From Bacteroidales bacterium (lineage in GTDB: Bacteria; Bacteroidota; Bacteroidia; Bacteroidales; UBA932), in assembly GCA_016290835.1 (NCBI GenBank), contig JAEEVG010000029.1, positions 1 through 32,168 on the forward strand: a stretch of DNA of 32,168 bases, written 5' to 3'. Shown piece by piece: positions 8,632-19,175 of the stretch. The translations under genes and the position numbers were made by a program. How positions within the stretch are numbered: position 1 is the stretch's first letter; every line of letters starts with the position of its first letter. The notes under the pieces are model-generated. The model searched no databases. It was not told where the DNA came from and saw nothing but the letters and a program-made list of their open reading frames with translations.

Positions 8632-8695
8632 AGATCCTAAAGGTAGCAATTATTTCTAAAAGTGGGGCGGCGAAAGGGCCAAAATCCTGCCACGA

Positions 8696-8732
8696 CGCCG
8701 CTTTTTCCTGATCAGGACAGAAAAAAGCGGCG
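8696..8732. terminator. Stem-loop after the RiPP operon, possible terminator
   Basis: CGCCGCTTTTT (8696-8706) and AAAAAGCGGCG (8722-8732) form an 11-bp stem; the loop contains the palindrome CCTGATCAGG. It lies 37 bp after the stop of the last peptide-operon gene. The T-run sits inside the stem rather than after it, so termination is plausible but not textbook. Confidence 0.45.
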
Positions 8733-8769
8733 CCACGTGCCCGGACAAAAGCCCTTAACTATGGCACGA

Positions 8770-9903
8770 TCACTTCAGTTTGAAAACCACCAACAGCGGA
8801 TTGCCCTCCTCGTCGAAGCCCTCCAGCAGCGGCCGGGCCGCCGGGACGAGCGCGACCAGTTCATCCTTGAAAACAAGCTCCGGCAGGGGCAGGATGCAAT
8901 GTTTCCCGTCAACCGTCGTATTCTGGAAATAGAAAGCCATGGCCATCAGCGAGTCCGCCGGGATGCTGAAGACCTGGCCATCCGACTTCCGGATGGCGAA
9001 GACCTTGTCCCGGCGGCCCGTGTCCTGAAAGCGGCAGAACAGATAGTCCGTGCCCTCGGCCGTGACGGAAAAGATCTGCTCTGCAGAGTTGTGCGCGGTG
9101 TTGACGAGCCGGGTCTCGGTCCGTCCGGCGTCGGAGAAGAAATAGGTCGTATCCGATCGTGACCCCGGGTTCAACCAGACTCCGCCCCGCCCCCGGACCG
9201 GCCCGCTGGAATACACCCGGTATCGAATATAGCCGGCAAGATCGTGGGGCCGCCCGAAGTGGATATCCGCTGTCGGAAAGGGAGAAAAGTCTGCTTTGCC
9301 GAACAGGGCCACCGTCGGAGTCTGTGAGTCGATGACCTCTCCGTCGGTCTCGTAAATGAATTGCGAGGAAAGATTGTACATCAGGAACTTGTCCGGAAGA
9401 CCGGACCATTGGACGGTATTGGGGATCTCCGGATCAAGCTGCTCCGTATCCAGCGGATGGTAGCTCCCGTCATACCCGAATCGGAGGACTTTCCGGGAAT
9501 TGGTGTCGTAGATGAAGAGCATTTCTTTCTCCGGATCGGAGAGCAGTCGGATGGATGGGGAAGAGAATTCCCCCGGACCGCGCCCGACGCGGCCGATTTT
9601 GCGCAAAAACCGGCCTTGACCATCGAAAACGCCCACGCAGGTATTCTCCCCGAGCCCGCAGGTAATGAAAAACATTCTCCGGGTTTCGTCGAAGCAACTG
9701 TTCGCCCCGAGCATCTGGTTGACGAAGAGACCTTGCTCTGCCCCCTGAAGCTGCACGATGCTGATTTCGGCGAGATCGGACAACGGAAGCTCGAAAGCGG
9801 GATAAGAAACCCCGGGGTCGATTGTATAGAGGATGTCCCTTTCTTTGGGCGTACAAGACGCCAGGAGAAGCAGCAAGATGGCTGTAATACTGAAAATACG
9901 CAT
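8770..9903 (-). CDS. Six-bladed beta-propeller lipoprotein 1, partner of precursor 1
   Basis: A 377-residue predicted lipoprotein (lipobox LLASC, Cys17) of the six-bladed, NHL-like propeller type common in Bacteroidota. The repeat hallmark GRVGRGPGEF is near residue 110, and blade-like strands run to the end. It closes with FDEEGNPLLVVFKLK, shared with the other two propellers of this cluster. It lies 3 bp after the precursor 1 stop, so the two are translated together. Its GC-rich codon use is like the host genome and unlike the AT-rich precursor directly upstream. Likely anchored in the periplasm or outer membrane; a role in binding, presenting or neutralising the exported peptide is inferred from the pairing only. 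Confidence 0.88.
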   Translation of the reverse strand: MRIFSITAILLLLLASCTPKERDILYTIDPGVSYPAFELPLSDLAEISIVQLQGAEQGLFVNQMLGANSCFDETRRMFFITCGLGENTCVGVFDGQGRFLRKIGRVGRGPGEFSSPSIRLLSDPEKEMLFIYDTNSRKVLRFGYDGSYHPLDTEQLDPEIPNTVQWSGLPDKFLMYNLSSQFIYETDGEVIDSQTPTVALFGKADFSPFPTADIHFGRPHDLAGYIRYRVYSSGPVRGRGGVWLNPGSRSDTTYFFSDAGRTETRLVNTAHNSAEQIFSVTAEGTDYLFCRFQDTGRRDKVFAIRKSDGQVFSIPADSLMAMAFYFQNTTVDGKHCILPLPELVFKDELVALVPAARPLLEGFDEEGNPLLVVFKLK

Positions 9904-9906
9904 GGG

Positions 9907-10146
9907 TTACTCTACAGGGCTAGTCCTGGATAATCCCTCATGGTAAATCATTGCAGCCACTTCAGGACCATAATTGGAATCCATAAAGGATGAGATATTA
10001 GAATCATAAGTAACATCACAGGAACATGTGCAGATAGACACACAGACACAAGCACAAACTGGTTTGTGGTCGCCTCCTTTGAGAGCGCTGGCTTGGCTTT
10101 GGGAAATCTGTTCCTTAGCCAAAGAAGATAGAGATAATCTTTTCAT
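9907..10146 (-). CDS. Double-glycine RiPP precursor peptide 1
   Basis: A 79-residue peptide. Residues 1-25 are a leader ending ALKGG, of the type cleaved by C39 peptidases and almost the same as in precursors 2 and 3. The core begins DHKPV and holds six Cys in CxCxCxxxCxCxC, followed by a polar tail ending SRTSPVE that differs from the other two. Leader and Cys-rich block match what I know of the GG-Bacteroidales radical-SAM target family (TIGR04149). It lies 36 bp after the exporter gene and 3 bp before propeller 1. The final modified form cannot be deduced. Confidence 0.87.
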   Translation of the reverse strand: MKRLSLSSLAKEQISQSQASALKGGDHKPVCACVCVSICTCSCDVTYDSNISSFMDSNYGPEVAAMIYHEGLSRTSPVE

Positions 10147-10182
10147 ATCTAATGGTTTTAAAGAGTGGATTTACGCTTTGTA

Positions 10183-12384
10183 TTATTCCCCGGAAAACAA
10201 CTGATTTTTCCCTAATTGATAATAGTAGCCATGTTGAGAAACTAAACTATCATGGGTGCCTTGTTCAACCACACGTCCATTATGTAAGACAATGATGTTG
10301 TCCGCGTCCTTGATAGTGCTGAGACGGTGGGCTACGATAACCGCGGTTTTACCACTAAATAAAGACAATAAGTTTTGTAGAATGGCATACTCGTTTTCTG
10401 AGTCAAGAGCATTGGTCGCTTCATCGAAAAACAAATATGGTGGATTTTTGTATGCTGCACGTGCAATGAGAATCCGCTGCTTCTGGCCAGAACTTAATCC
10501 ATGGCCATTGGCGCCAAGCATCGTGTTATATTGAAGAGGCAATGACTCTATCCAATCAGAAATAATCGCGATTCGTGCTGATTCCTTTACCTTTTCCATG
10601 TCTTGTTCATCGGATGACAGAGAGATATTGTTGGCTATGGTATCTGCAAAGATGAAACCATCCTGCATCACACTGCCGCATAAAGTCCTCCAATTCTTTA
10701 TATTATAGTTTGATAGATCCTTGTTCCCAATATAAATGTGCCCGGAAACGGGGGAGTAAAAGCCGAGGAGCATTTTCAGTAAAGTGGTTTTTCCACTTCC
10801 AGATGCTCCGACGATAGCCGTGGTCTTCCCAGACGGAATCCGTATGGAGACGTTGTCAAGAACCTTTGCTGATCGAGGTCCGTCATATTGGAACGTCACG
10901 TTCTCCATCCTCAAATCTTCAAAGGATGGAATCGCAGATTCTTGCGCATTTAATGAAGGCTCTTCATCTTCCATACCATGAACTTCTCCGAGCCTTTCCA
11001 GAGAAATTGCAGCGTCTTGTGTGGACTGAATAAAAGAAATAAACTGTGATACAGGGGCGCTGAGATGCCCCATTACGTATTGAATAGCCATCATCATTCC
11101 CAAAGTCATCTCTCCTTTTATCACCGCAATGGCTGCGATGAATGAAATGGTAATGCTCTTCAACTGTTCAATCAAAGTACTGCCTATTTCCTGAGTCTGT
11201 CCCAGATTTAAACTCTTTATGCTAATGCGGAATAGTTGTTCTTGAGTATCTACCCATGTTTTCCGTTTCTTCTCTTCGCAATTATTTAGTTTAATGTCTT
11301 GCATTCCCGACACTATTTGAATCAATAGGTTTTGACTTAAAGACGATTGACGGAATCGTTCGTGATCAAGTTTTTTTCGGCGTTTGAGAAATAGAAATAC
11401 CCAAATGATATACAGGACCGTACCAACCAGAAAAACCAGAAAGACCCATATATTGTAAGTCGCCATAACAATGCTATAAATGAAAAATGTTATAAGTGCG
11501 ACGCAAATGCTTAAAAGTGTTCCGGTCAGGAACTGTTGAATCCTCGTGTGATCAGAAATCCGCTGGAGAATGTCTCCGGTATGCCTTCGGTCAAAGAATG
11601 AAATTGGCAATCTCATCAACTTGGATAGGAAATCCGAAATCAGGGAGATGCTCGTTCTGGTTGTTACTTTAAGAAGCAGACGGTTCCGTATCAGGTTGTT
11701 AGCAAGGAGCCCAAGGGTTAGCATCATTTGGGCCAAAAGGACGGCTGTAACAAAAGACACACTCTTTTCACCAATCCCTTTGTCAACGAGCGCTTGGGTT
11801 AGGAAAGGGAAAAGGAGCCCACAAACACTAGCTAAAAGCATAGTGGCGAAAATGCTGGCTATTTTTTTCTTGAATGGATTTAGATACGCGATAATTTGTC
11901 TGAAACCATATCTATTCGTTTTAATGCTCTGATTTGCAATCTCCTGAAAGGCATCAGTTGCCTCGAAGAGGATGCACAACCCTGACTGCCCGTCCGGACT
12001 CCAGTATTTAAAGAACTCTTCGCCGTTGAATTCGACGAGACCGTCTGCTGGATCGGCAACTTGCACCCTCCATCGCTTACAGCAACGTTTTATACCATAT
12101 ACAACAACAAAATGATTTTGCCTCCAATGGCAGATGCAAGGAAGAGGTATTTCATCCCGGAGTCTCTCCCAAGATACTTTGATGGCAGTGTTTTTTAGCC
12201 CTAACATACTTGCCGCATCCATAATGTCTGAAACAGATGCGCCTTCTTTGCCGACATAACAAGTTTCCCTTAGTAACTGAATGGAAATATCCCGTCCGTA
12301 GAACCTACATATCATCTTAAGACATGCTGGTCCACAGTCCATAACACTATTCTGCAAAACATAAGGGAAGACTCGTGGTTTCAT
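10183..12384 (-). CDS. C39 peptidase-containing ABC transporter (leader-cleaving peptide exporter)
   Basis: A 733-residue fused exporter that cuts double-glycine leaders and carries the peptide over the inner membrane. The N-terminal C39 domain (about 1-140) has the nucleophile in MDCGPACL (Cys17), His91 in NHFVVVYG and Asp111 in VADPADG, so the triad is intact. The membrane domain spans about 165-450. The nucleotide-binding domain has Walker A GASGSGKTT (526-534), signature LSSGQ (630-634), Walker B YLFFDE (650-655) and H-loop His686. It lies 5 bp after propeller 2, in the middle of the operon, and should serve all three precursors. No HlyD-like adaptor or TolC-like channel is present in the window, so delivery to the periplasm is the simplest reading. 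Confidence 0.95.
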   Translation of the reverse strand: MKPRVFPYVLQNSVMDCGPACLKMICRFYGRDISIQLLRETCYVGKEGASVSDIMDAASMLGLKNTAIKVSWERLRDEIPLPCICHWRQNHFVVVYGIKRCCKRWRVQVADPADGLVEFNGEEFFKYWSPDGQSGLCILFEATDAFQEIANQSIKTNRYGFRQIIAYLNPFKKKIASIFATMLLASVCGLLFPFLTQALVDKGIGEKSVSFVTAVLLAQMMLTLGLLANNLIRNRLLLKVTTRTSISLISDFLSKLMRLPISFFDRRHTGDILQRISDHTRIQQFLTGTLLSICVALITFFIYSIVMATYNIWVFLVFLVGTVLYIIWVFLFLKRRKKLDHERFRQSSLSQNLLIQIVSGMQDIKLNNCEEKKRKTWVDTQEQLFRISIKSLNLGQTQEIGSTLIEQLKSITISFIAAIAVIKGEMTLGMMMAIQYVMGHLSAPVSQFISFIQSTQDAAISLERLGEVHGMEDEEPSLNAQESAIPSFEDLRMENVTFQYDGPRSAKVLDNVSIRIPSGKTTAIVGASGSGKTTLLKMLLGFYSPVSGHIYIGNKDLSNYNIKNWRTLCGSVMQDGFIFADTIANNISLSSDEQDMEKVKESARIAIISDWIESLPLQYNTMLGANGHGLSSGQKQRILIARAAYKNPPYLFFDEATNALDSENEYAILQNLLSLFSGKTAVIVAHRLSTIKDADNIIVLHNGRVVEQGTHDSLVSQHGYYYQLGKNQLFSGE

Positions 12385-12389
12385 CCTGA

Positions 12390-13499
12390 CTATTTAAGCG
12401 AAAAGATGACAAGTAAAGGATTGCCTTCCTCGTCGAAGGAATCAATCACTGGCTTTGCGTTAGGATCAAGTGCAATCAGTTCATTTTTATATTGGATTTC
12501 CGGCATGGGCAGAATACAACGCATTCCGTCGCCCGTCGCATTGAAGAAATAAAAAGTCAAGAAACTCAACTGCTGGGGCGAGATCTTGAAGACCGCGCCG
12601 TCGGATTTGCGGATGACGAAGCATTTTTCCCAGTGCGTATCGTCTCTATATCTGCAGAAAAGGTATTCCGGGCTCTCGAATACTAGAGAAAGGATGTGTT
12701 CTGCGGTATTGTGGGTGAGGTTGACAACACGCGGGACAATCCGGCCGTCATGCTGAAAGAAATATGTCGTGTCCGAACAGGAGGACGGATTGAGCCAGAC
12801 ACCCTTATCGGTAGGAACGGCCCCGGTGCTATATACTTTGTAGGTCATATAGCCCTTGAAATCAAAAGGACGAGGAAACTGAAAGTCTCTTTTTTCGACC
12901 AGTGTCAAGTCCTCTATGCAAAAAATGCAGAGCATGGGTTGATGCGTTAATTCGGATTTTTGCTTTTCGTAATTGAGTAATTTGTCCCCGCTTCTCACCC
13001 ATTCACCTCCAAAGATTTCTTCATCAAACTGCTTGGTCTCTATGTAATTCCCCTCATAATCATACAGAATAAATTTGTAGTCATATTTATCAATGACTAA
13101 CAAATGTTTTTCCTCGGGTATAGGAAGAATAGAAATCATTTCCGAGCAGAATTCTCCCGGCCCCCGTCCTACTTTTCCGATACTCCGGATGAAATTGCCA
13201 TCGAAATCAAAAACCCCGACAGAGGTCAGATGCCCAATTCCGTTTGATAGGAAAATCAATTGATTTACATCGTCAAAATACACATTCCTTCCAACCAATG
13301 TGCGGATGAAGTAGTGTTGTCCCTCTCCACCCAGGCGAATTACCCGGATGTCAAAGATGTGATTGAGTGGGACAGCGAACTCAGGATAGTCCTTGTCCGG
13401 GTTGATTAGGAATACCCTGTCCGTCGTCTGGTGCGTGCAGGCATTTATGACCAGACAAAGGGCCAGAAATGAACTATGGATAAGGCGGGAACAATTCAT
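12390..13499 (-). CDS. Six-bladed beta-propeller lipoprotein 2, partner of precursor 2
   Basis: A 369-residue predicted lipoprotein (lipobox VINAC, Cys21) with the propeller hallmark GKVGRGPGEF and the family ending FDEEGNPLLVIFSLK. It is very similar to propeller 3 over its whole length (for example HNTAEHILSLVFESPEYLFC in both with few changes nearby) and more distantly similar to propeller 1. Its ATG overlaps the stop of precursor 2 by 4 bp (ATGA), so the two products are likely made in fixed ratio. Function unknown; see propeller 1 for the inferred role. Confidence 0.89.
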   Translation of the reverse strand: MNCSRLIHSSFLALCLVINACTHQTTDRVFLINPDKDYPEFAVPLNHIFDIRVIRLGGEGQHYFIRTLVGRNVYFDDVNQLIFLSNGIGHLTSVGVFDFDGNFIRSIGKVGRGPGEFCSEMISILPIPEEKHLLVIDKYDYKFILYDYEGNYIETKQFDEEIFGGEWVRSGDKLLNYEKQKSELTHQPMLCIFCIEDLTLVEKRDFQFPRPFDFKGYMTYKVYSTGAVPTDKGVWLNPSSCSDTTYFFQHDGRIVPRVVNLTHNTAEHILSLVFESPEYLFCRYRDDTHWEKCFVIRKSDGAVFKISPQQLSFLTFYFFNATGDGMRCILPMPEIQYKNELIALDPNAKPVIDSFDEEGNPLLVIFSLK

Positions 13500-13726
13500 A
13501 AGTTCTGATCCCAGCCATTACCATCAAAATCGCTATTCATTAATGTATTAGGAGTATCTGCGGCATCTCCTGATACATCTAGATTAATATTGTTTAGGAA
13601 CTCATAACATGTGCAGGTACAAATGTAAACACAGGTACAAAGGATTTTGTCGCCACCTTTGAGGGCGTTGGTTTGGCGTCTGGTGATTTGCTCCATGGCC
13701 AAGGTTGAGAGGGATAATTCTTTCAT
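13496..13726 (-). CDS. Double-glycine RiPP precursor peptide 2
   Basis: A 76-residue peptide with a 25-residue leader (starts MKELSLSTLAMEQ, ends ALKGG) and a 51-residue core. The core begins DKIL and has the block CTCVYICTCTC, five Cys in CxCxxxCxCxC. The tail is acidic and Asn-rich and ends GNGWDQNL. It is nearly the same as precursor 3 and shares leader and Cys spacing with precursor 1. It is translationally coupled to propeller 2, and an AT-rich gap of 51 bp separates it from propeller 3 upstream. Confidence 0.88.
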   Translation of the reverse strand: MKELSLSTLAMEQITRRQTNALKGGDKILCTCVYICTCTCYEFLNNINLDVSGDAADTPNTLMNSDFDGNGWDQNL

Positions 13727-13777
13727 AATAAAGGAGTTTTGAATAATTGTAATAAATGTATAAGATGCGCTAAGAAA

Positions 13778-14884
13778 CTATTTGAGGGTGAAAATAACAA
13801 GTAAAGGATTGCCTTCCTCGTCAAAGGACTCGATCAATGGCTTCGCGTCCGGATCGAGTGCAATGAGTTCATCAGGGTACAGTATTTCTGACATAGGCAG
13901 AATACAATGCCGTCCGTCACGCGTAGCATTCCAAAAGTAAAAAGTCAGGAAGCTTAATTGTTGCGGTGAGATTTTGAAGATTTCGCCGTCCGATTTATGG
14001 ATGACGAAACACTTCTCCCAGTGTTCTGCATTCCTGTACCTACAGAAAAGATATTCTGGACTCTCAAAGACGAGGGAAAGGATGTGCTCTGCCGTGTTGT
14101 GGGCAAGATTGACGATACGGGGAACAATCCGACCGTCATGCTGAAAGAAATATGTCGTGTCCGAACAAGAATCCGGATTGAGCCAGATGCCATTTTCAGA
14201 GCAGACTGTCCCGGTGCTATATACTTTGTACTTTAAGTATCCAGCAGTGTCGTAAGGTCGAGAAAAATGAAAACTGCGATTTCCGATAGGACGGAGACTA
14301 TCTAAATCAAATAATGAAAGTGTCGATTCCATTTGAGGATTATTTATGTCGTACGCCAGCAACTTGTTTGCAATAGATGCCCACTCATATGTATACAGTT
14401 GCTCATCAAATCGTTGGGTCTTCATATAGTTCCCGTTATAGTCGTAGCAGATGAATTTTCCATCGTAATAGTCAATGACCAGCACTTGTTCTTTTTCAGG
14501 GATGGGGAGAAATGCAATGTAATCTGAGCAGAACTCTGCAGGTCCACCTCCCACCCTGCCGATGCTTCGGATGAAATGGCCATTAAAATCAAAAACCCCG
14601 ATAGATGATAGGTGCCCAATAAAACCATTTATCAAGAGTATCTGCTGATTCTTCTCGTCAAGATAAAGATTTCTTCCAAGTATATGTCGGATAAAGAAGT
14701 TCTGCTCCTCTCCTTCTAGATGAATGACTTTAACATCGAAGATATCACAGAGAGGGATGTTGAACTCCGGATAGTCCTTTTCCGGGTTAATCAAGAATAA
14801 CCTGTCTGGCATTTTGTGTGCGCAGGCATTGAGGACCAGACAAAGAACCAGAAAAATAAACTGGAAATGACTTGAACATTTCAT
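13778..14884 (-). CDS. Six-bladed beta-propeller lipoprotein 3, partner of precursor 3
   Basis: A 368-residue predicted lipoprotein (lipobox VLNAC, Cys21). The propeller hallmark is slightly changed to GRVGGGPAEF, and the protein ends FDEEGNPLLVIFTLK. It is a close paralogue of propeller 2; the C-terminal third is the most conserved part, while the region around residues 170-210 has diverged most. The start overlaps the precursor 3 stop by 4 bp. The precursor 3/propeller 3 pair looks like one half of a tandem duplication with the next pair. Confidence 0.89.
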   Translation of the reverse strand: MKCSSHFQFIFLVLCLVLNACAHKMPDRLFLINPEKDYPEFNIPLCDIFDVKVIHLEGEEQNFFIRHILGRNLYLDEKNQQILLINGFIGHLSSIGVFDFNGHFIRSIGRVGGGPAEFCSDYIAFLPIPEKEQVLVIDYYDGKFICYDYNGNYMKTQRFDEQLYTYEWASIANKLLAYDINNPQMESTLSLFDLDSLRPIGNRSFHFSRPYDTAGYLKYKVYSTGTVCSENGIWLNPDSCSDTTYFFQHDGRIVPRIVNLAHNTAEHILSLVFESPEYLFCRYRNAEHWEKCFVIHKSDGEIFKISPQQLSFLTFYFWNATRDGRHCILPMSEILYPDELIALDPDAKPLIESFDEEGNPLLVIFTLK

Positions 14885-15111
14885 GTGTTTTGATCCCAGC
14901 CATTACCGTTAAAGTCATTGTTCTTGAGTGTCTCAGGGGTAACTGCTGAATCACCTGTCACATCGTATTGTAAATTATTCAAGAACTCATAACAAGTGCA
15001 GGTGCAGATGTAAACACAAGTACAAAGAATCTTGTCGCCACCTTTGAGGGCGCTGGTTTGTTCTCTGGAGATTTGTTCCATAGCCAAGGATGAGAGGGAT
15101 AATCGTTTCAT
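14881..15111 (-). CDS. Double-glycine RiPP precursor peptide 3
   Basis: A 76-residue peptide, leader starting MKRLSLSSLAMEQ and ending ALKGG, core starting DKIL with CTCVYICTCTC, identical to precursor 2 in the Cys block, and tail ending GNGWDQNT. Differences from precursor 2 lie mostly in the middle of the tail (LQYDVTGDSAVTPETLKNND). It follows the pseudo-rSAM gene by 22 bp, so it is the precursor closest to the maturation genes. Confidence 0.88.
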   Translation of the reverse strand: MKRLSLSSLAMEQISREQTSALKGGDKILCTCVYICTCTCYEFLNNLQYDVTGDSAVTPETLKNNDFNGNGWDQNT

Positions 15112-15133
15112 GAATGATATGAGTTAAATGCAA

Positions 15134-16294
15134 TTATCTGTTGAAGCACATGTGATAATCTCCCTTCCATAGCTCATAGTTTGAGATACAAGGGCATAGT
15201 CGGTTAAAACGACAGTCCGGGCACGAGAAAGATGGCCGTGTTTTCAACCATACTGAATGTACATTGGTCAACTCTCTATAGACTAAATCGACAGGGGAAT
15301 CATAAATATCTCCAATGGTGTCACCGTTGAGATTCCCGCACACCGTTCTGTCAGGTAAGACGAATAAATGGCCAAAACAGTTGGAGTTCAATGATTGATG
15401 GAGAAAAATGTCTCGTTTCCCACAATTGAGTATTTCTTCTCTTTGCGTGAATACATAGTTCTCGAAAAATCCATCGTTTTGATTAATTATCGGTACTATC
15501 TGTTTGTCTCGAATAGGTATTCGTTCAGCTTTGTCAAGGGCAACCGTGGAGTCGACCAAGAATAAGTGAGGGAACGCCTGTAACCGTTTGTCATAGCGTG
15601 CGGGAAAGGTTGTTATGATAACGTGGCAGAATGGATATGTCGCAGAAACTGCCATTATGGAGTCGGTGGTCCAAGAGCCGGGGGCTAGATATATAAATAT
15701 GTTGGGATTTTCAAGAAATAGGTCTTCAATGTAATTCTTCTTTGGGATTAGATCGGATTCTTTCGAGGGAAAGATATTGATACGGTTAATTGGGCAATAG
15801 CGTAGATTTGCAACGAATCTCAAGAGATCAGCTCCTTGGATCTCGATGTTGGATGGAGAAAAAGGAAAGGGTACTTGATGGCTGAAAGGACTTTTGTTTT
15901 TGTCACCGGAAAGGAACAGATTTAATTGATGAACATATTTTAGCAAACAGCCTTTGTCCCCATTTTCTACCTTCTTGATAATTGATACTAAGTTTTCGTT
16001 GAGTTTAATGACAGGGGGGTATGAAGGAGAATAAAGATGCCCTGAAGAAAATATCTTTGCAAAACCAGCACTAATTAGCTTGTCAATTAAAAACTGATTC
16101 TGTTGATATTGAATAGACGAAATCCGTGTTTGATACAAAAGACGAGGATCTTCCGAGAGAGGGAGCAGTATGTTGTCAATAAACGGAGTATGCTTTGTCT
16201 CGAAAGAATTGTGTGACAACGAATGATAAAAACACACCCCCTGTTTATCATAAAAAATGAACGTTTCGGGGGAAAAAACCAAATATCTGTCCAT
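15134..16294 (-). CDS. Pseudo-radical-SAM protein with SPASM-like C-terminus
   Basis: A 386-residue protein that has no CxxxCxxC motif in its N-terminal part, so it should not bind the S-adenosylmethionine cluster. The C-terminus keeps a SPASM-like set of cysteines: Cys306, Cys319, Cys358, Cys361, Cys367, Cys369 and Cys383. This and the context fit the pseudo-rSAM GG-Bacteroidales family (TIGR04150 in my memory of the family names). It overlaps the maturase stop by one base (16294). It may act as a precursor-binding or electron-transfer partner of the maturase; this is inference. Confidence 0.82.
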   Translation of the reverse strand: MDRYLVFSPETFIFYDKQGVCFYHSLSHNSFETKHTPFIDNILLPLSEDPRLLYQTRISSIQYQQNQFLIDKLISAGFAKIFSSGHLYSPSYPPVIKLNENLVSIIKKVENGDKGCLLKYVHQLNLFLSGDKNKSPFSHQVPFPFSPSNIEIQGADLLRFVANLRYCPINRINIFPSKESDLIPKKNYIEDLFLENPNIFIYLAPGSWTTDSIMAVSATYPFCHVIITTFPARYDKRLQAFPHLFLVDSTVALDKAERIPIRDKQIVPIINQNDGFFENYVFTQREEILNCGKRDIFLHQSLNSNCFGHLFVLPDRTVCGNLNGDTIGDIYDSPVDLVYRELTNVHSVWLKTRPSFSCPDCRFNRLCPCISNYELWKGDYHMCFNR

Positions 16295-17499
16295 TATGCT
16301 TGCGATGTGTGAGAATAAAACAATGCCATTGCTTCTGGTAAACTGTGCTTTACAAGACTGAATCTAATGGGTGTATCATCGGCTGGATTGAAAGACGAAC
16401 AGGCCTTTTCGTGTTTTTGATAAACACAAATTGTGCAGGATCGATTATGCTGACACAAAGAACATTGCTCAAGATACTTTGTCCTACTCCGGTTATGCAG
16501 TTTTGCAATAAGCTCATAATCAAGAGAGACACCCTTATCAGTAACCAAGCCAAAAGCAAAATCGTGATGAATCCGTTCGCACGGGAGTACCTTGCCTCGG
16601 GCAGAGATGAACATCTTTTTTGCAAAGGGAAGACATGTTCCGGTGGGGAAGACCGACTTTATTGAACGGTCAAATAGTAGATCGTTGAAGTCACCAAAAT
16701 AATTCCCGCTTTTGTTTTGGAAATCTCGAAGGAAAGAGGAAAAGTATGGGGAAACATCTAAAGGGATGCAACTCGTATCTGGGATACCTGGGTGGGCGAT
16801 CTGACGGAATTTTTCCTTTTTGTCTTCGTTAAGGTCGGCAAGAGAAATGGGGGATATCTGGGGCTTTTTACCAAATTCGGTTTCACAAAAACGCCTAATC
16901 CCCTCATAGTCATTTCTATTGTTGAGAACCGCGTTAAAGGAAACACAATCGCGAAAGAAAACAGGATAACTCTTTCGTATTTGTTGGATATTCTTATATA
17001 CAGTGGGGAAAGAAGGATTGCCTTGTGCGTCTACACGATAACTGTCACCGATTTCATCCCCATCCAGACTAATCAGTAGATGAAAACCATACTTAACAAG
17101 AAACGAAAGATGCTTAGGAAGCAGAATCCCATTGGTGGTCATAGAATAAGTAATATGACGGTTGATTCTACTTTTATATCGCTCAACATAGTCTATAATT
17201 TGTTGAATCAAAGGAACATTTAGTAGCGGCTCTCCACCATAGAACCCGATGTTCAGTCGAAGAGGTGTTTGACGAAGAACATCATCATCCCATAGTTGAA
17301 ATAAATAATCCAAAGTCGTTTTAGCGGTATGGAAGTCCATTTTTTTGCCACTTCGGCCGCTACTTTTTGTATAGAGATCGGAGAAGGCACAATACTCACA
17401 ACAAAGATTGCAACCCTCGGTCACTTCGAAAACAAGATTCGGCAAAAAATTTAAATTGTAAATAATGTGATCTGGTTTTATTTCAGCATAATCCATCAT
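16294..17499 (-). CDS. Radical SAM/SPASM peptide maturase
   Basis: A 401-residue radical-SAM enzyme with the cluster motif CNLCCEYC (Cys30, Cys34, Cys37) and a C-terminal SPASM domain with seven cysteines (289, 307, 346, 349, 355, 358, 367) for auxiliary iron-sulfur clusters. FYGGEPLL near residue 110 is the usual GGE motif. It fits the GG-Bacteroidales peptide maturase family (TIGR04148). It probably modifies the Cys-rich core of the three precursors, for example by thioether formation, but the bond type is not visible from sequence. First gene of the operon; the ATG at 17499 is followed by a second ATG at 17496, and a good promoter lies directly upstream. Confidence 0.92.
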   Translation of the reverse strand: MMDYAEIKPDHIIYNLNFLPNLVFEVTEGCNLCCEYCAFSDLYTKSSGRSGKKMDFHTAKTTLDYLFQLWDDDVLRQTPLRLNIGFYGGEPLLNVPLIQQIIDYVERYKSRINRHITYSMTTNGILLPKHLSFLVKYGFHLLISLDGDEIGDSYRVDAQGNPSFPTVYKNIQQIRKSYPVFFRDCVSFNAVLNNRNDYEGIRRFCETEFGKKPQISPISLADLNEDKKEKFRQIAHPGIPDTSCIPLDVSPYFSSFLRDFQNKSGNYFGDFNDLLFDRSIKSVFPTGTCLPFAKKMFISARGKVLPCERIHHDFAFGLVTDKGVSLDYELIAKLHNRSRTKYLEQCSLCQHNRSCTICVYQKHEKACSSFNPADDTPIRFSLVKHSLPEAMALFYSHTSQA

Positions 17500-17503
17500 A
17501 TTA

Positions 17504-17535
17504 CAAAGTTAGTGCGCAGGAGTTTTTCCGGCAAA
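17504..17535 (-). promoter_or_regulatory. Promoter of the RiPP operon
   Basis: On the minus strand TTTG (17535-17532) and TAACTTTG (17511-17504) stand 20 nt apart, a full match to the Bacteroidota -33/-7 pattern. The predicted start of transcription is at or within a few bases of the maturase ATG, so the mRNA would be leaderless or nearly so. Confidence 0.65.
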
Positions 17536-17606: not shown

Positions 17607-19175
17607 TCAGTTCGCGGATTTGCTGGAAAGATATTGCAGGTAGGATACTTTGTCGGGGGAGTCGCTTTTCCGGATGCGGTCGCGCAAGCGGGTGGCGCGG
17701 GTGTAGAGGGTCCCGGTGTTTTCGCCGAGGATGACGGCAATCGCGTTATAGGAGAGTCCCGCTACGACATAGGTCACGAAGGGGAAGTCTTTGGGGGAGA
17801 AGAGTTGTTCGTCCTGGTGCATCCTGGCCAGGAGCTGACGGCGTCCGGGATCGAGTTGGGCTTCAAACCGGGAGATGAAGGCGGGGTCTTCCCGGTAGCG
17901 GGCGAGCATAATGGAGAAATGCTTGAGCAGGCGCTCATTTTTGTTCAGGAAAGGCTGATCGTACACCTTGCAGAGCTCTTCCAGGATCAGGAACTTGGAG
18001 GATTCCCCGTCAGGACTCTTGTCGGTCAGCGCCTTCAGATCCCGGCGAAGTGACGCCTCGGCCTTTTTGGACCGCCATAGCAACAGGCCGGTGATGCCGA
18101 TCAGGATCAATGCGGCGATCAACGCCGGGAGATGGGTGTTCATGTCCTCTGGCTGATGGTTGAAAACCAGGGTATTGATCGTAGCCCTCCGGGTGGAGTC
18201 TTCGCGGGTCCGAAGCTCTTCGTGAAGGGTCAGGGCCCTGGCCGAGTCCCCGCGGTTTTTGCGAATCCTGTATTCTGCCTCCCGGACGAAGTCGCGGTCA
18301 TCCCGTGCGGTAAGGGAGACATATGCGCTGTCCAGCAGCCGGTCTGCCCGGTCGGGGTGCCCGAGAAGTTCCTCCGCAACGGCGGACAAGGCATAATCCT
18401 TACTATAAAAGGAACCAAATACATCCCGGAGGCGGGACAATTTGGAACGGGCGCTGTCCGGCTGGGGCGGGGTCATCCTCAAATACTGTCCCACTGTTTC
18501 CCGGAGTATGTCCTGCTGATATGCATAGTAGCCTTGTTCTTCTACATAGTGGAAGATACGGTCCAGGGCGGCCTCCGCCTGACGCCTTTTCCCGAGTTGG
18601 ATCCAGGCCTCGACCAGGCGGTTGCCTGTGGTCAGGAAATGCTCGTGGTCTCCGGCCAGGATAAAATAATTCTGGGCCTGGGACGCGTATTCGTAGGCTT
18701 GCTGGGGCAGTTCGGTCAACTGGTATAGAGATGCCATCCGCAGGTTGGACATGGCGGCATAGAACCAGTCCTCCTGCCGGGCGGCTTCTTCGCCGGAACG
18801 GGCCAGGAATGAATAGGCTTGGTCGTATCTTCCGGAGATCATCGCCTGGTCGCCGAGATAATACAGGACGATGTGCTGGAGATGTCTGGGCGGGTGTTTT
18901 GAGTACCAGTCTGCGTCCTGGGCTGTCAGGCCGGCCGAGGGGCCCTGGTCGAGGTGGCTCTTGTCCGATGCGATGGCGCTGAAGAGATGGTATTGAGCCT
19001 GGAGACGGGGAGGGCGGAGGGCGGTCGTGTCCACGGCCTGCAATAAGGTGAGCGCCGAGTCGGGGTGATCCTGGACGATGGCCTCAATCCGCCGCAAGCA
19101 GGTCTGCTGCCCGCAGGCGGCGAGCAGCAGCAGGGTCAGCAGGCCTGCGGACAGGTATGGGCGTCGGCGGGGCAT
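17607..19175 (-). CDS. TPR-transmembrane-HTH regulator, lipoprotein-type N-terminus
   Basis: A 522-residue protein with three parts. The N-terminus has a signal with lipobox LLAAC (Cys21). A long helical TPR-like region (about 30-340) follows, expected in the periplasm. One membrane helix lies at about 349-368. The cytosolic C-terminal part has a coiled region (370-460) and a LuxR/sigma-4-like helix-turn-helix near 471-502 (LSYNAIAVILGENTGTLYTR). This is the layout of Bacteroidota membrane-bound one-component regulators (DUF6377-like). It sits 6 bp after pyrC and 107 bp before the peptide operon on the same strand, so it is the best candidate to control that operon. Composition is GC-rich, unlike the operon. 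Confidence 0.82.
   Translation of the reverse strand: MPRRRPYLSAGLLTLLLLAACGQQTCLRRIEAIVQDHPDSALTLLQAVDTTALRPPRLQAQYHLFSAIASDKSHLDQGPSAGLTAQDADWYSKHPPRHLQHIVLYYLGDQAMISGRYDQAYSFLARSGEEAARQEDWFYAAMSNLRMASLYQLTELPQQAYEYASQAQNYFILAGDHEHFLTTGNRLVEAWIQLGKRRQAEAALDRIFHYVEEQGYYAYQQDILRETVGQYLRMTPPQPDSARSKLSRLRDVFGSFYSKDYALSAVAEELLGHPDRADRLLDSAYVSLTARDDRDFVREAEYRIRKNRGDSARALTLHEELRTREDSTRRATINTLVFNHQPEDMNTHLPALIAALILIGITGLLLWRSKKAEASLRRDLKALTDKSPDGESSKFLILEELCKVYDQPFLNKNERLLKHFSIMLARYREDPAFISRFEAQLDPGRRQLLARMHQDEQLFSPKDFPFVTYVVAGLSYNAIAVILGENTGTLYTRATRLRDRIRKSDSPDKVSYLQYLSSKSAN

Follow-up and report, generated by a model that had tools for sequence, protein, structure and literature searches.

A Bacteroidales radical SAM peptide operon in which each of three Cys-rich precursors is followed by a propeller lipoprotein gene

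Radical SAM enzymes are the most commonly identified RiPP enzymes across 1,136 Bacteroidales strains, as reported in the accessible part of PMC10352776. Among the described systems, the Bacteroidales cassette recognized by TIGR04148, TIGR04149 and TIGR04150 shares with the locus studied here a maturase family, a pseudo-radical SAM (pseudo-rSAM) protein, a precursor with a double-glycine leader and a C39 exporter. A cluster of this kind in B. fragilis 3_1_12 contains a TIGR04149 precursor, immediately 3′ of it a lipoprotein and then a TIGR04085/TIGR04150 rSAM pair; section 8 of the source, in its available text, lists the lipoprotein as PF08139 and does not discuss its role (PMC4573289). BGC5 also combines an rSAM enzyme with a pseudo-rSAM protein, and signalling was suggested by its authors, but it differs from our locus in carrying LanC-like and CAZyme genes and in that no transporter was found (PMC10352776, available part); the main text of that paper uses neither ‘propeller’ nor ‘lipoprotein’. 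The accessible parts of PMC10352776, PMC4573289, PMC8939145 and PMC2954219 give no product or role for such a cassette. Further related enzymes are the ranthipeptide maturases PapB and CteB and the CcpM family, which, like the maturase described below, are rSAM/SPASM enzymes acting on Cys-rich precursors. Ranthipeptides are defined by a thioether from a Cys sulfur to a non-alpha carbon.

The analyzed window, a 32,168-nt stretch of a Bacteroidales bacterium contig, contains nine open reading frames (ORFs) that form a single minus-strand gene run from 17499 to 8770 (Table 1). Their order and overall span are as originally predicted, with transcription proceeding from the rSAM maturase and pseudo-rSAM genes through precursor 3, propeller 3, precursor 2, propeller 2 and the C39 exporter to precursor 1 and propeller 1. 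Unlike the TIGR04148/04149/04150 cassette, the locus has three precursors with a propeller each, and its pseudo-rSAM protein and two precursors fall below the model cut-offs; the B. fragilis 3_1_12 cluster, by contrast, has a single module. The three precursor–propeller pairs are similar and look like duplicated units. At ATGA junctions, the start codons of propellers 2 and 3 overlap the stop codons of precursors 2 and 3. Most of the operon has 40–45% GC versus 60–66% for the contig, while propeller 1 (57.8%) differs from the other eight genes, including precursor 1 (42.1%). A scan of both strands of the window gave a single match to TTTG-N20-TAnnTTTG, which we take to be the Bacteroidetes-type promoter consensus; this match lies directly upstream of the run (shuffled sequences average 0.08 matches). 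At its other end is a hairpin with a z score of −5.1, an energy reached by none of 200 shuffles, although it is absent from the list of our terminator scan. Rfam and tRNA scans of the whole window returned no match, and the operon holds no membrane-fusion gene, with nine HlyD_3 matches elsewhere in the same genome.

Table 1 Features of the operon and its flanks, in order of transcription.
Feature	Position	Strand	Properties
Possible regulator, TPR-type lipoprotein	17607..19175	-	One likely membrane segment, helix-turn-helix-like end (domains by eye)
Bacteroidetes-type promoter match TTTG-N20-TAnnTTTG	17504..17535	-	4 bases 5′ of maturase start codon
Radical SAM/SPASM peptide maturase	16294..17499	-	401 aa; TIGR04148 over cut-off; CX3CX2C and seven SPASM Cys
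Pseudo-rSAM partner	15134..16294	-	386 aa; TIGR04150 142 bits, below cut-off
Precursor peptide 3	14881..15111	-	76 aa; 25-aa leader and 51-aa core (5 Cys; CTCVYICTCTC)
Propeller lipoprotein 3	13778..14884	-	368 aa; PF17170 35.9 bits
Precursor peptide 2	13496..13726	-	76 aa; 51-aa core (5 Cys)
Propeller lipoprotein 2	12390..13499	-	369 aa; PF17170 40.2 bits
C39 peptidase-containing ABC exporter	10183..12384	-	733 aa; PF03412, PF00664 and PF00005 over cut-off
Precursor peptide 1	9907..10146	-	79 aa; 54-aa core (6 Cys); TIGR04149 28.1 bits
Propeller lipoprotein 1	8770..9903	-	377 aa; PF17170 42.2 bits
Strong hairpin, possible transcription terminator	8665..8770	-	Directly 3′ of last gene; −51.4 kcal/mol

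The maturase reached the TIGR04148 cut-off of 300 with 380.1 bits. It carries the rSAM motif CNLCCEYC at residue 30 and SPASM cysteines at positions 289, 307, 346, 349, 355, 358 and 367, all seven of which are conserved without exception when the window enzyme is aligned with 17 relatives. The enzyme is of a short form, lacking an N-terminal extension of ~100 aa that some relatives have. The next-best models were for Cys-rich-peptide, lachnocin and ranthipeptide maturases, with TIGR04068 (CcpM) ranked second and NF047865 (PapB) fourth, both far below their cut-offs. The PDB matches of the analysis include 5wgg, which is CteB according to the accessible part of PMC10352776. The pseudo-rSAM protein aligned to positions 1–404 of the 407 in TIGR04150 with 141.7 bits, short of the cut-off of 250; it lacks CX3CX2C, retains C-terminal SPASM-like cysteines and is best regarded as TIGR04150-like only. 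For the exporter, PF03412 scored 110.4 bits (cut-off 22), and C17, H91 and D111 can be read from the sequence as a candidate C39 triad. Some maturase relatives lie on contigs of metagenome-assembled genomes labelled Lachnospiraceae, Aminicenantes or FCPU426, where binning errors are possible.

Each precursor has GG at residues 24–25. Only precursor 1 reached the TIGR04149 cut-off of 25, with precursors 3 and 2 scoring 19.9 and 17.4. The original assignment to the TIGR04148/04149/04150 type is thus confirmed by model for the maturase and precursor 1 and not for the pseudo-rSAM protein and the other two precursors; the rSAM and SPASM motifs, the triad as a candidate and the double-glycine leaders were all found as predicted, and an rSAM RiPP operon of this type remains supported despite the low scores. 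Precursor 3 is 79% identical to precursor 2 and 55% to precursor 1. Across 76 codons, precursors 2 and 3 gave a dN/dS of 0.19. Their cores differ by 6.0 synonymous and 0.0 nonsynonymous changes (17 aligned codons), while the leaders alone carry no purifying signal (synonymous 2.5/17.5, nonsynonymous 7.5/60.5). A CxC motif follows GG in 38 of the 44 kept precursors that were found without using CxC; for background GG ORFs the figure is 12 of 169. These 44 remain from 58 Cys-holding GG candidates (CxC in 41 before any were dropped), after removal of three judged to be chance ORFs, one duplicate (L085) and ten that we considered a different kind of peptide or neighbours of a different maturase (in L066–L068, L084, L087 and L092). 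Of 13 further candidates selected by CxC, three were excluded: L040 and L086, considered to be chance, and L079, a duplicate. The original prediction depended on conserved precursor ORFs under coding selection, and the precursors are conserved, with the core under coding selection.

All three propellers exceed the PF17170 gathering score of 22.9, with part of the model covered, and possess a lipobox-like Cys. Propeller 2 is 66% identical to propeller 3 and 44% to propeller 1. A profile of 11 propellers aligned to PDB 4raa from position 51 to 378 of 379 (E = 4.2 × 10−17). In this genome only the three operon propellers match propeller 2 at E ≤ 1 × 10−5, the best match elsewhere among 392 genomes of the order has 27% identity (E = 2.8 × 10−13), and a profile search of genome contigs with the three-propeller alignment confirmed 0 of 120 stretches. 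Related clusters were sought using the maturase instead. Eight aligned propellers from other clusters are 16–21% identical to propeller 2.

Among 25 genomes, a PF17170 match lies within 1 kb downstream of nine of 39 TIGR04149 matches (expected, 0.033) and upstream of only one; with the window left out, the count is 7/37. The nine pairs come from five genomes and are, being drawn from so few, not independent. PF17170 itself is abundant: 15 of the 25 genomes have 145 matches in total, 11 of them in this one, and certain matches are fragments of the same gene. No TIGR04149 match precedes 136 of the 145, among which propeller 2 is counted because precursor 2 scores under threshold. The predicted co-occurrence accordingly stands above chance when viewed from the precursors and is weak when viewed from the propellers (9/145), so the counter-scenario of propellers found equally often without precursors is half realized.

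The position 3′ of the precursor is not exclusive to propellers: the first gene there (n = 54) encodes a propeller in ten cases, a GLPGLI protein in nine and an aspartic-protease/PDZ-like lipoprotein in seven, the remaining precursors being followed by the maturase (19), something else (5) or nothing within 1 kb (4). If the ten dropped precursors are restored, a partner of the three families is next in at most 26 of 64. At least three partner families, the propellers among them, therefore occupy this slot. The alternative partner in L043 scores as an aspartic protease (PF13650), while others have PDZ domains. GLPGLI-type loci also hold a gene of 869–913 aa that appears outer-membrane-protein-like by eye. 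A family-wide rule of strictly one propeller per precursor was rejected, as propeller and precursor numbers differ in L046 (four listed to two), L069 (three to one) and L082. The window maturase clusters with those of L046, L069 and L048 (SH-aLRT 92), all with propellers nearby. Partner type fixed per maturase clade was likewise rejected, with the propeller label needing six changes for nine rows on a poorly resolved tree (5/47 inner branches starred).

Similar pairing was seen for NVEALA peptides, for which we found no paper in the open-licence PMC literature. NVEALA (PF14055) matches precede PF17170 in six of 17 cases (expected, 0.042), in two genomes. As in the window, a small peptide is encoded directly before the PF17170 gene; unlike the window precursors, NVEALA peptides have a signal-like N terminus by eye and are not tied to rSAM genes. 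The three window precursors did not match PF14055 at E = 1, nor did PF14055 find a match in this genome at E = 0.01. An 81-aa peptide on contig C79 of the genome (L191) looks NVEALA-like by eye. Small-peptide/propeller arrays are present in two genomes of the same genus (G016 and G437).

From the gene content, one enzyme set probably modifies and exports the three small Cys-rich peptides. The maturase would cross-link the CxC-rich core, with thioethers as a first guess because of its nearest models, and the pseudo-rSAM protein may serve as a leader-binding or scaffolding subunit. The C39 exporter would then cleave after GG and carry the product across the inner membrane. Beyond it, either in the periplasm or at the outer membrane, the mature peptide may be bound by the propeller lipoprotein as a receptor or carrier; the stop codon of each precursor overlaps or almost touches the start codon of its propeller, which couples the two genes. 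That shared machinery handles all three peptides and that each is bound by its own envelope propeller partner is a proposal we regard as evenly balanced. We would place signalling slightly ahead of self-protection, with the upstream TPR-type membrane protein perhaps acting as the reader. This gene had no Pfam match at 0.001 and scored 31.6 bits with the BT3442 family, far under the cut-off of 940. Relatives occur near clusters in L035, L049, L070 and L073 and also in L189. As a system member it was set aside, enrichment not being shown because the family is near-ubiquitous (25 of 26 genomes at E = 1 × 10−6) and the profile was built from near-cluster cases.

The most serious alternative, which we nonetheless consider unlikely, is a bacteriocin system, in which each peptide would be a bacteriocin and the propeller encoded after it the matching immunity lipoprotein. 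LanI-type lipoproteins provide immunity to lantibiotics, and a lipoprotein gene directly 3′ of each structural gene would fit this arrangement; unrelated families in one slot, as seen 3′ of the precursors, are common among immunity proteins. The GG leader and C39 export also resemble those of bacteriocins, and such clusters were classed as sactipeptide-like in an earlier survey (PMC4573289, accessible part). However, modules 2 and 3 have diverged propellers but cores without a single difference over 41.3 nonsynonymous sites, such that one core would have two immunity proteins. Listed propellers outnumber precursors in some clusters, the rSAM-independent NVEALA peptides share the propeller partner, and Pfam and NCBIfam scans of the window propellers revealed no immunity family. 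To our knowledge, GLPGLI and aspartic-protease/PDZ-like proteins are not known immunity families either.

The same protease and PDZ-like partners, together with the large outer-membrane-like gene at GLPGLI-type loci, could instead suit an extracytoplasmic maturation enzyme or chaperone that trims, folds or loads the peptide onto an outer-membrane machine, with no receptor involved. This is less probable still, given that the window propellers matched no catalytic family above cut-off in these scans and the implausibility of unrelated folds performing one processing step. That the propellers are ordinary DUF5128 lipoproteins placed beside precursors by chance or island assembly could draw on the abundance of PF17170 and the deviating GC content of propeller 1, but is very improbable in view of the downstream-biased pairing, the overlapping reading frames and the restriction of propeller 2-like proteins in this genome to the operon.

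Binding of each peptide by a dedicated partner remains our preferred account. On the best reading of these sequences, Bacteroidales may have a broader peptide-plus-partner module, where genes for small, exported, Cys-containing peptides would stand immediately ahead of a propeller lipoprotein gene, and the operon would be its RiPP form. In its general form, advanced tentatively and with somewhat less than even confidence, a Cys-rich peptide, either Sec-exported and NVEALA-type or rSAM-modified with C39 export, would be followed by the gene for a propeller, GLPGLI or aspartic-protease/PDZ-like partner, with arrays, envelope signalling or recognition and, sometimes, sensing by a TPR-type regulator. 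Clusters of this type are already known; what is new is the tripled arrangement and the partner slot. The peptide–partner pairs in relatives hint at a way of handling secreted peptides not yet described. The three-partner rule, with one partner family also found 3′ of unmodified peptides, suggests where function might be sought, and the slot could give PF17170 propellers and GLPGLI proteins a first role.

The nine reading frames of the original prediction were all borne out, in coordinates and in order, on the minus strand. The window is the entire contig C78 (32,168 bases) of a 2.66-Mb genome in 112 contigs that is 94% complete. The radical SAM (rSAM) and pseudo-rSAM frames share one base; precursors 3 and 2 each run four bases (ATGA) into their own propeller, and a gap of three bases separates precursor 1 from propeller 1. 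The pattern TTTG-N18-22-TAnnTTTG, which we take to be the Bacteroidetes-type promoter consensus, has a single match in the window (0.08 expected), ending 4 bases 5' of the maturase start codon. A strong hairpin (z -5.1) lies 3' of the last operon gene and is absent from the list of a simple terminator scan. The nine genes are most naturally read as a single transcription unit.

Coordinates of the operon, its discussed parts and a comparison locus.
Feature	Sequence	Positions	Strand
Operon (maturase, pseudo-rSAM, precursor 3, propeller 3, precursor 2, propeller 2, C39 exporter, precursor 1, propeller 1)	window	17499-8770	-
Pseudo-rSAM	window	15134-16294	-
Precursor 3	window	14881-15111	-
Precursor 2	window	13496-13726	-
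Precursor 1 and propeller 1	window	8770-10146	-
TPR-type lipoprotein gene	window	17607-19175	
Peptide-propeller array (L197)	G016:C1	259000-269000	

GC content is 40-45% in eight of the nine operon genes and mostly 60-66% in the flanks. The maturase family has a match in 2 of 37 genus genomes, the window's own counted and the other (G016) below cut-off. Across the order, 24 of 392 genomes have one at E 1e-60; horizontal arrival of the operon is likely. Propeller 1 is the odd gene, with 57.8% GC and 73% at third positions next to 42% and 36% in the adjoining precursor 1, a clash within one module that perhaps reflects recombination. Directly upstream of the operon stands a TPR-type lipoprotein gene of 60% GC. 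Since 3 of 81 genus genomes, the window's included, have a match to it at E 1e-30, the gene may have arrived together with the island despite this composition.

The C39 exporter passed the Pfam domain models and did not reach the NHLM equivalog (470 versus 853 bits). A profile of 11 cluster propellers matched PDB 4raa ('Putative exported protein') over 51-378 of 379 (E 4.2e-17), and alignments of the same profile with NHL propellers were of partial length. For 17 pseudo-rSAMs, the profile aligned with radical SAM chain 5v1q at 107-238 of 411 (E 1.2e-5), a match that suggests descent of pseudo-rSAM from a radical SAM enzyme. Among the 50 pseudo-rSAM partners in the rows of the maturase tree, 49 have a C-terminal SPASM-like Cys pattern. 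CX3CX2C near residues 123-148 is kept in 25, so that 'pseudo' is a misnomer for half of the partners; it is absent there from 25, the window's among them.

Precursors 2 and 3 are separated by dS 0.77 and dN 0.148 (ratio 0.19; 76 codons). Synonymous differences amount to 6.0 of 9.7 in the core (17 codons) and 14.2 of 20.0 in the tail (33 codons), with nonsynonymous values of 0.0 of 41.3 and 16.8 of 79.0; the leader taken alone (26 codons; 2.5 of 17.5 and 7.5 of 60.5) gives no purifying signal. Between the two genes, the leader holds few synonymous differences and the tail is near saturation; the leader looks as if it had been gene-converted. Across relatives, CxC follows the GG in 48 of 54 listed precursors, ten of which had been selected using CxC as a criterion. 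It is present in 38 of the 44 found without that criterion (41 of 58 prior to exclusions) and in 12 of 169 background ORFs whose GG is similarly placed.

All 25 genomes of the pairing sample were picked because they match the TIGR04148-type maturase: the 24 from the order-wide scan at E 1e-60, and G016. They contain 39 matches to the precursor model TIGR04149 at E 0.01 (22 genomes) and 145 to the propeller family PF17170 (15 genomes), some of the latter being pieces of one gene. Of the 39 TIGR04149 cases, nine have a same-strand PF17170 match that begins no more than 1 kb downstream and one has PF17170 upstream, with a density-based expectation of 0.033 for such a neighbour; leaving out the window gives 7 of 37 downstream. 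The nine adjacent pairs are not nine independent events, being confined to five genomes (G000, G230, G288, G389 and G408). Only 9 of the 145 PF17170 matches follow a TIGR04149 match; window propeller 2 belongs to the remaining 136, since its precursor falls under the threshold. Precursors are therefore enriched for propellers, and most propellers neighbour other genes.

The partner slot, directly after the precursor, was annotated at 28 maturase loci, seven further TIGR04149 loci and 26 of 80 named loci (L069-L092, L120 and L121), with duplicates and doubtful candidates omitted from the 54 precursors counted. The next gene downstream, if within 1 kb, encodes the maturase in 19 cases, a propeller in ten, a GLPGLI protein in nine, an Asp-protease/PDZ-like protein in seven and another protein in five; four have none. 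GLPGLI examples reach 137 and 179 bits with TIGR01200 (cut-off 50). The L043 partner scores 28.1 bits with PF13650 (cut-off 24.3) and PDZ models exceed cut-off in both proteins of L039 and in L038; protease and PDZ signals sit in different members, grouped as one family by a custom profile built here. The named propeller-type examples carry the MAG labels Bacteroides sp. STD2_73 (L069), Mediterranea massiliensis (L082) and Dysgonamonadaceae (L090); Parabacteroides chinchillae (L121) is a further one, while Segatella buccae (L073) is GLPGLI-type. In the maturase tree of 50 rows, the window groups with L046, L069 and L048 (SH-aLRT 92, not starred). Nine rows bear the propeller label, and six changes are needed to account for it, against a mean of 8.5 after shuffling (8 of 500 shuffles were as low); the partner was therefore probably swapped. 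A gene of 869-913 aa occurs near the GLPGLI gene in L044, L045, L049, L064, L072, L073, L075, L080 and L120; its start, judged by eye, would make it an outer-membrane-type protein.

NVEALA peptides (PF14055) gave 17 matches in 2 of the 25 genomes, with PF17170 within 1 kb downstream in six cases and upstream in one (0.042 expected); five of the six pairs belong to G390. In G016, of the same genus as the window, array L197 runs propeller, peptide-propeller, peptide-propeller, peptide, 181-aa protein and, last, a TolC-like gene. Two of its three propellers each directly follow a small peptide. All three peptides contain Cys and start with a signal-like segment; these peptides, their signals and the TolC-like gene were identified by eye, and the stretch contains no rSAM gene. 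Another genus member, G437, has a TPR-type gene, a 139-aa frame, a small Cys peptide (by eye) and a 364-aa lipoprotein, with a propeller one gene on (L189). At 28 loci around the best other propeller 2 matches, a GG precursor lies upstream in one (L152, same record as L050), an NVEALA-like peptide was seen by eye in four (L150, L158, L170 and L173) and neither was found in 23; in a few (for example, L164, L165 and L176), a neighbouring ORF may stand in for the propeller. Given these NVEALA, G016, G437 and propeller 2 neighbour loci, the window resembles a RiPP variant of a more general arrangement. PMC4573289 lists, for B. fragilis 3_1_12, a TIGR04149 precursor, then a lipoprotein, then an rSAM/TIGR04150 pair. 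The word 'propeller' is absent from the main text of PMC10352776, and among open-licence PMC papers we found none on the pairing rule or NVEALA peptides.

A common maturase and pseudo-rSAM would modify the three cores, with thioethers as a first guess because the models ranking next after TIGR04148 are Cys-rich-peptide, lachnocin and ranthipeptide maturases. C39 would remove the leader after GG and export the product. As the operon has no membrane-fusion gene (HlyD_3 matches lie elsewhere in the genome), the exported peptide may be delivered no further than the periplasm, and there the lipoprotein could meet it. Modules 3 and 2 share 79% identity in precursors and 66% in propellers; identity to module 1 is 55% (precursors 3/1) and 44% (propellers 2/1). 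The propeller middle is divergent (dN 0.31-0.67, alignment codons 120-240) and the end conserved (dN 0.06-0.19 after codon 240), with synonymous sites mostly saturated. Coupled frames, paired module similarity and a divergent propeller middle against a conserved end fit a putative binding partner with a variable face. As the role of such putative peptide binding, signalling would stand slightly ahead of self-protection.
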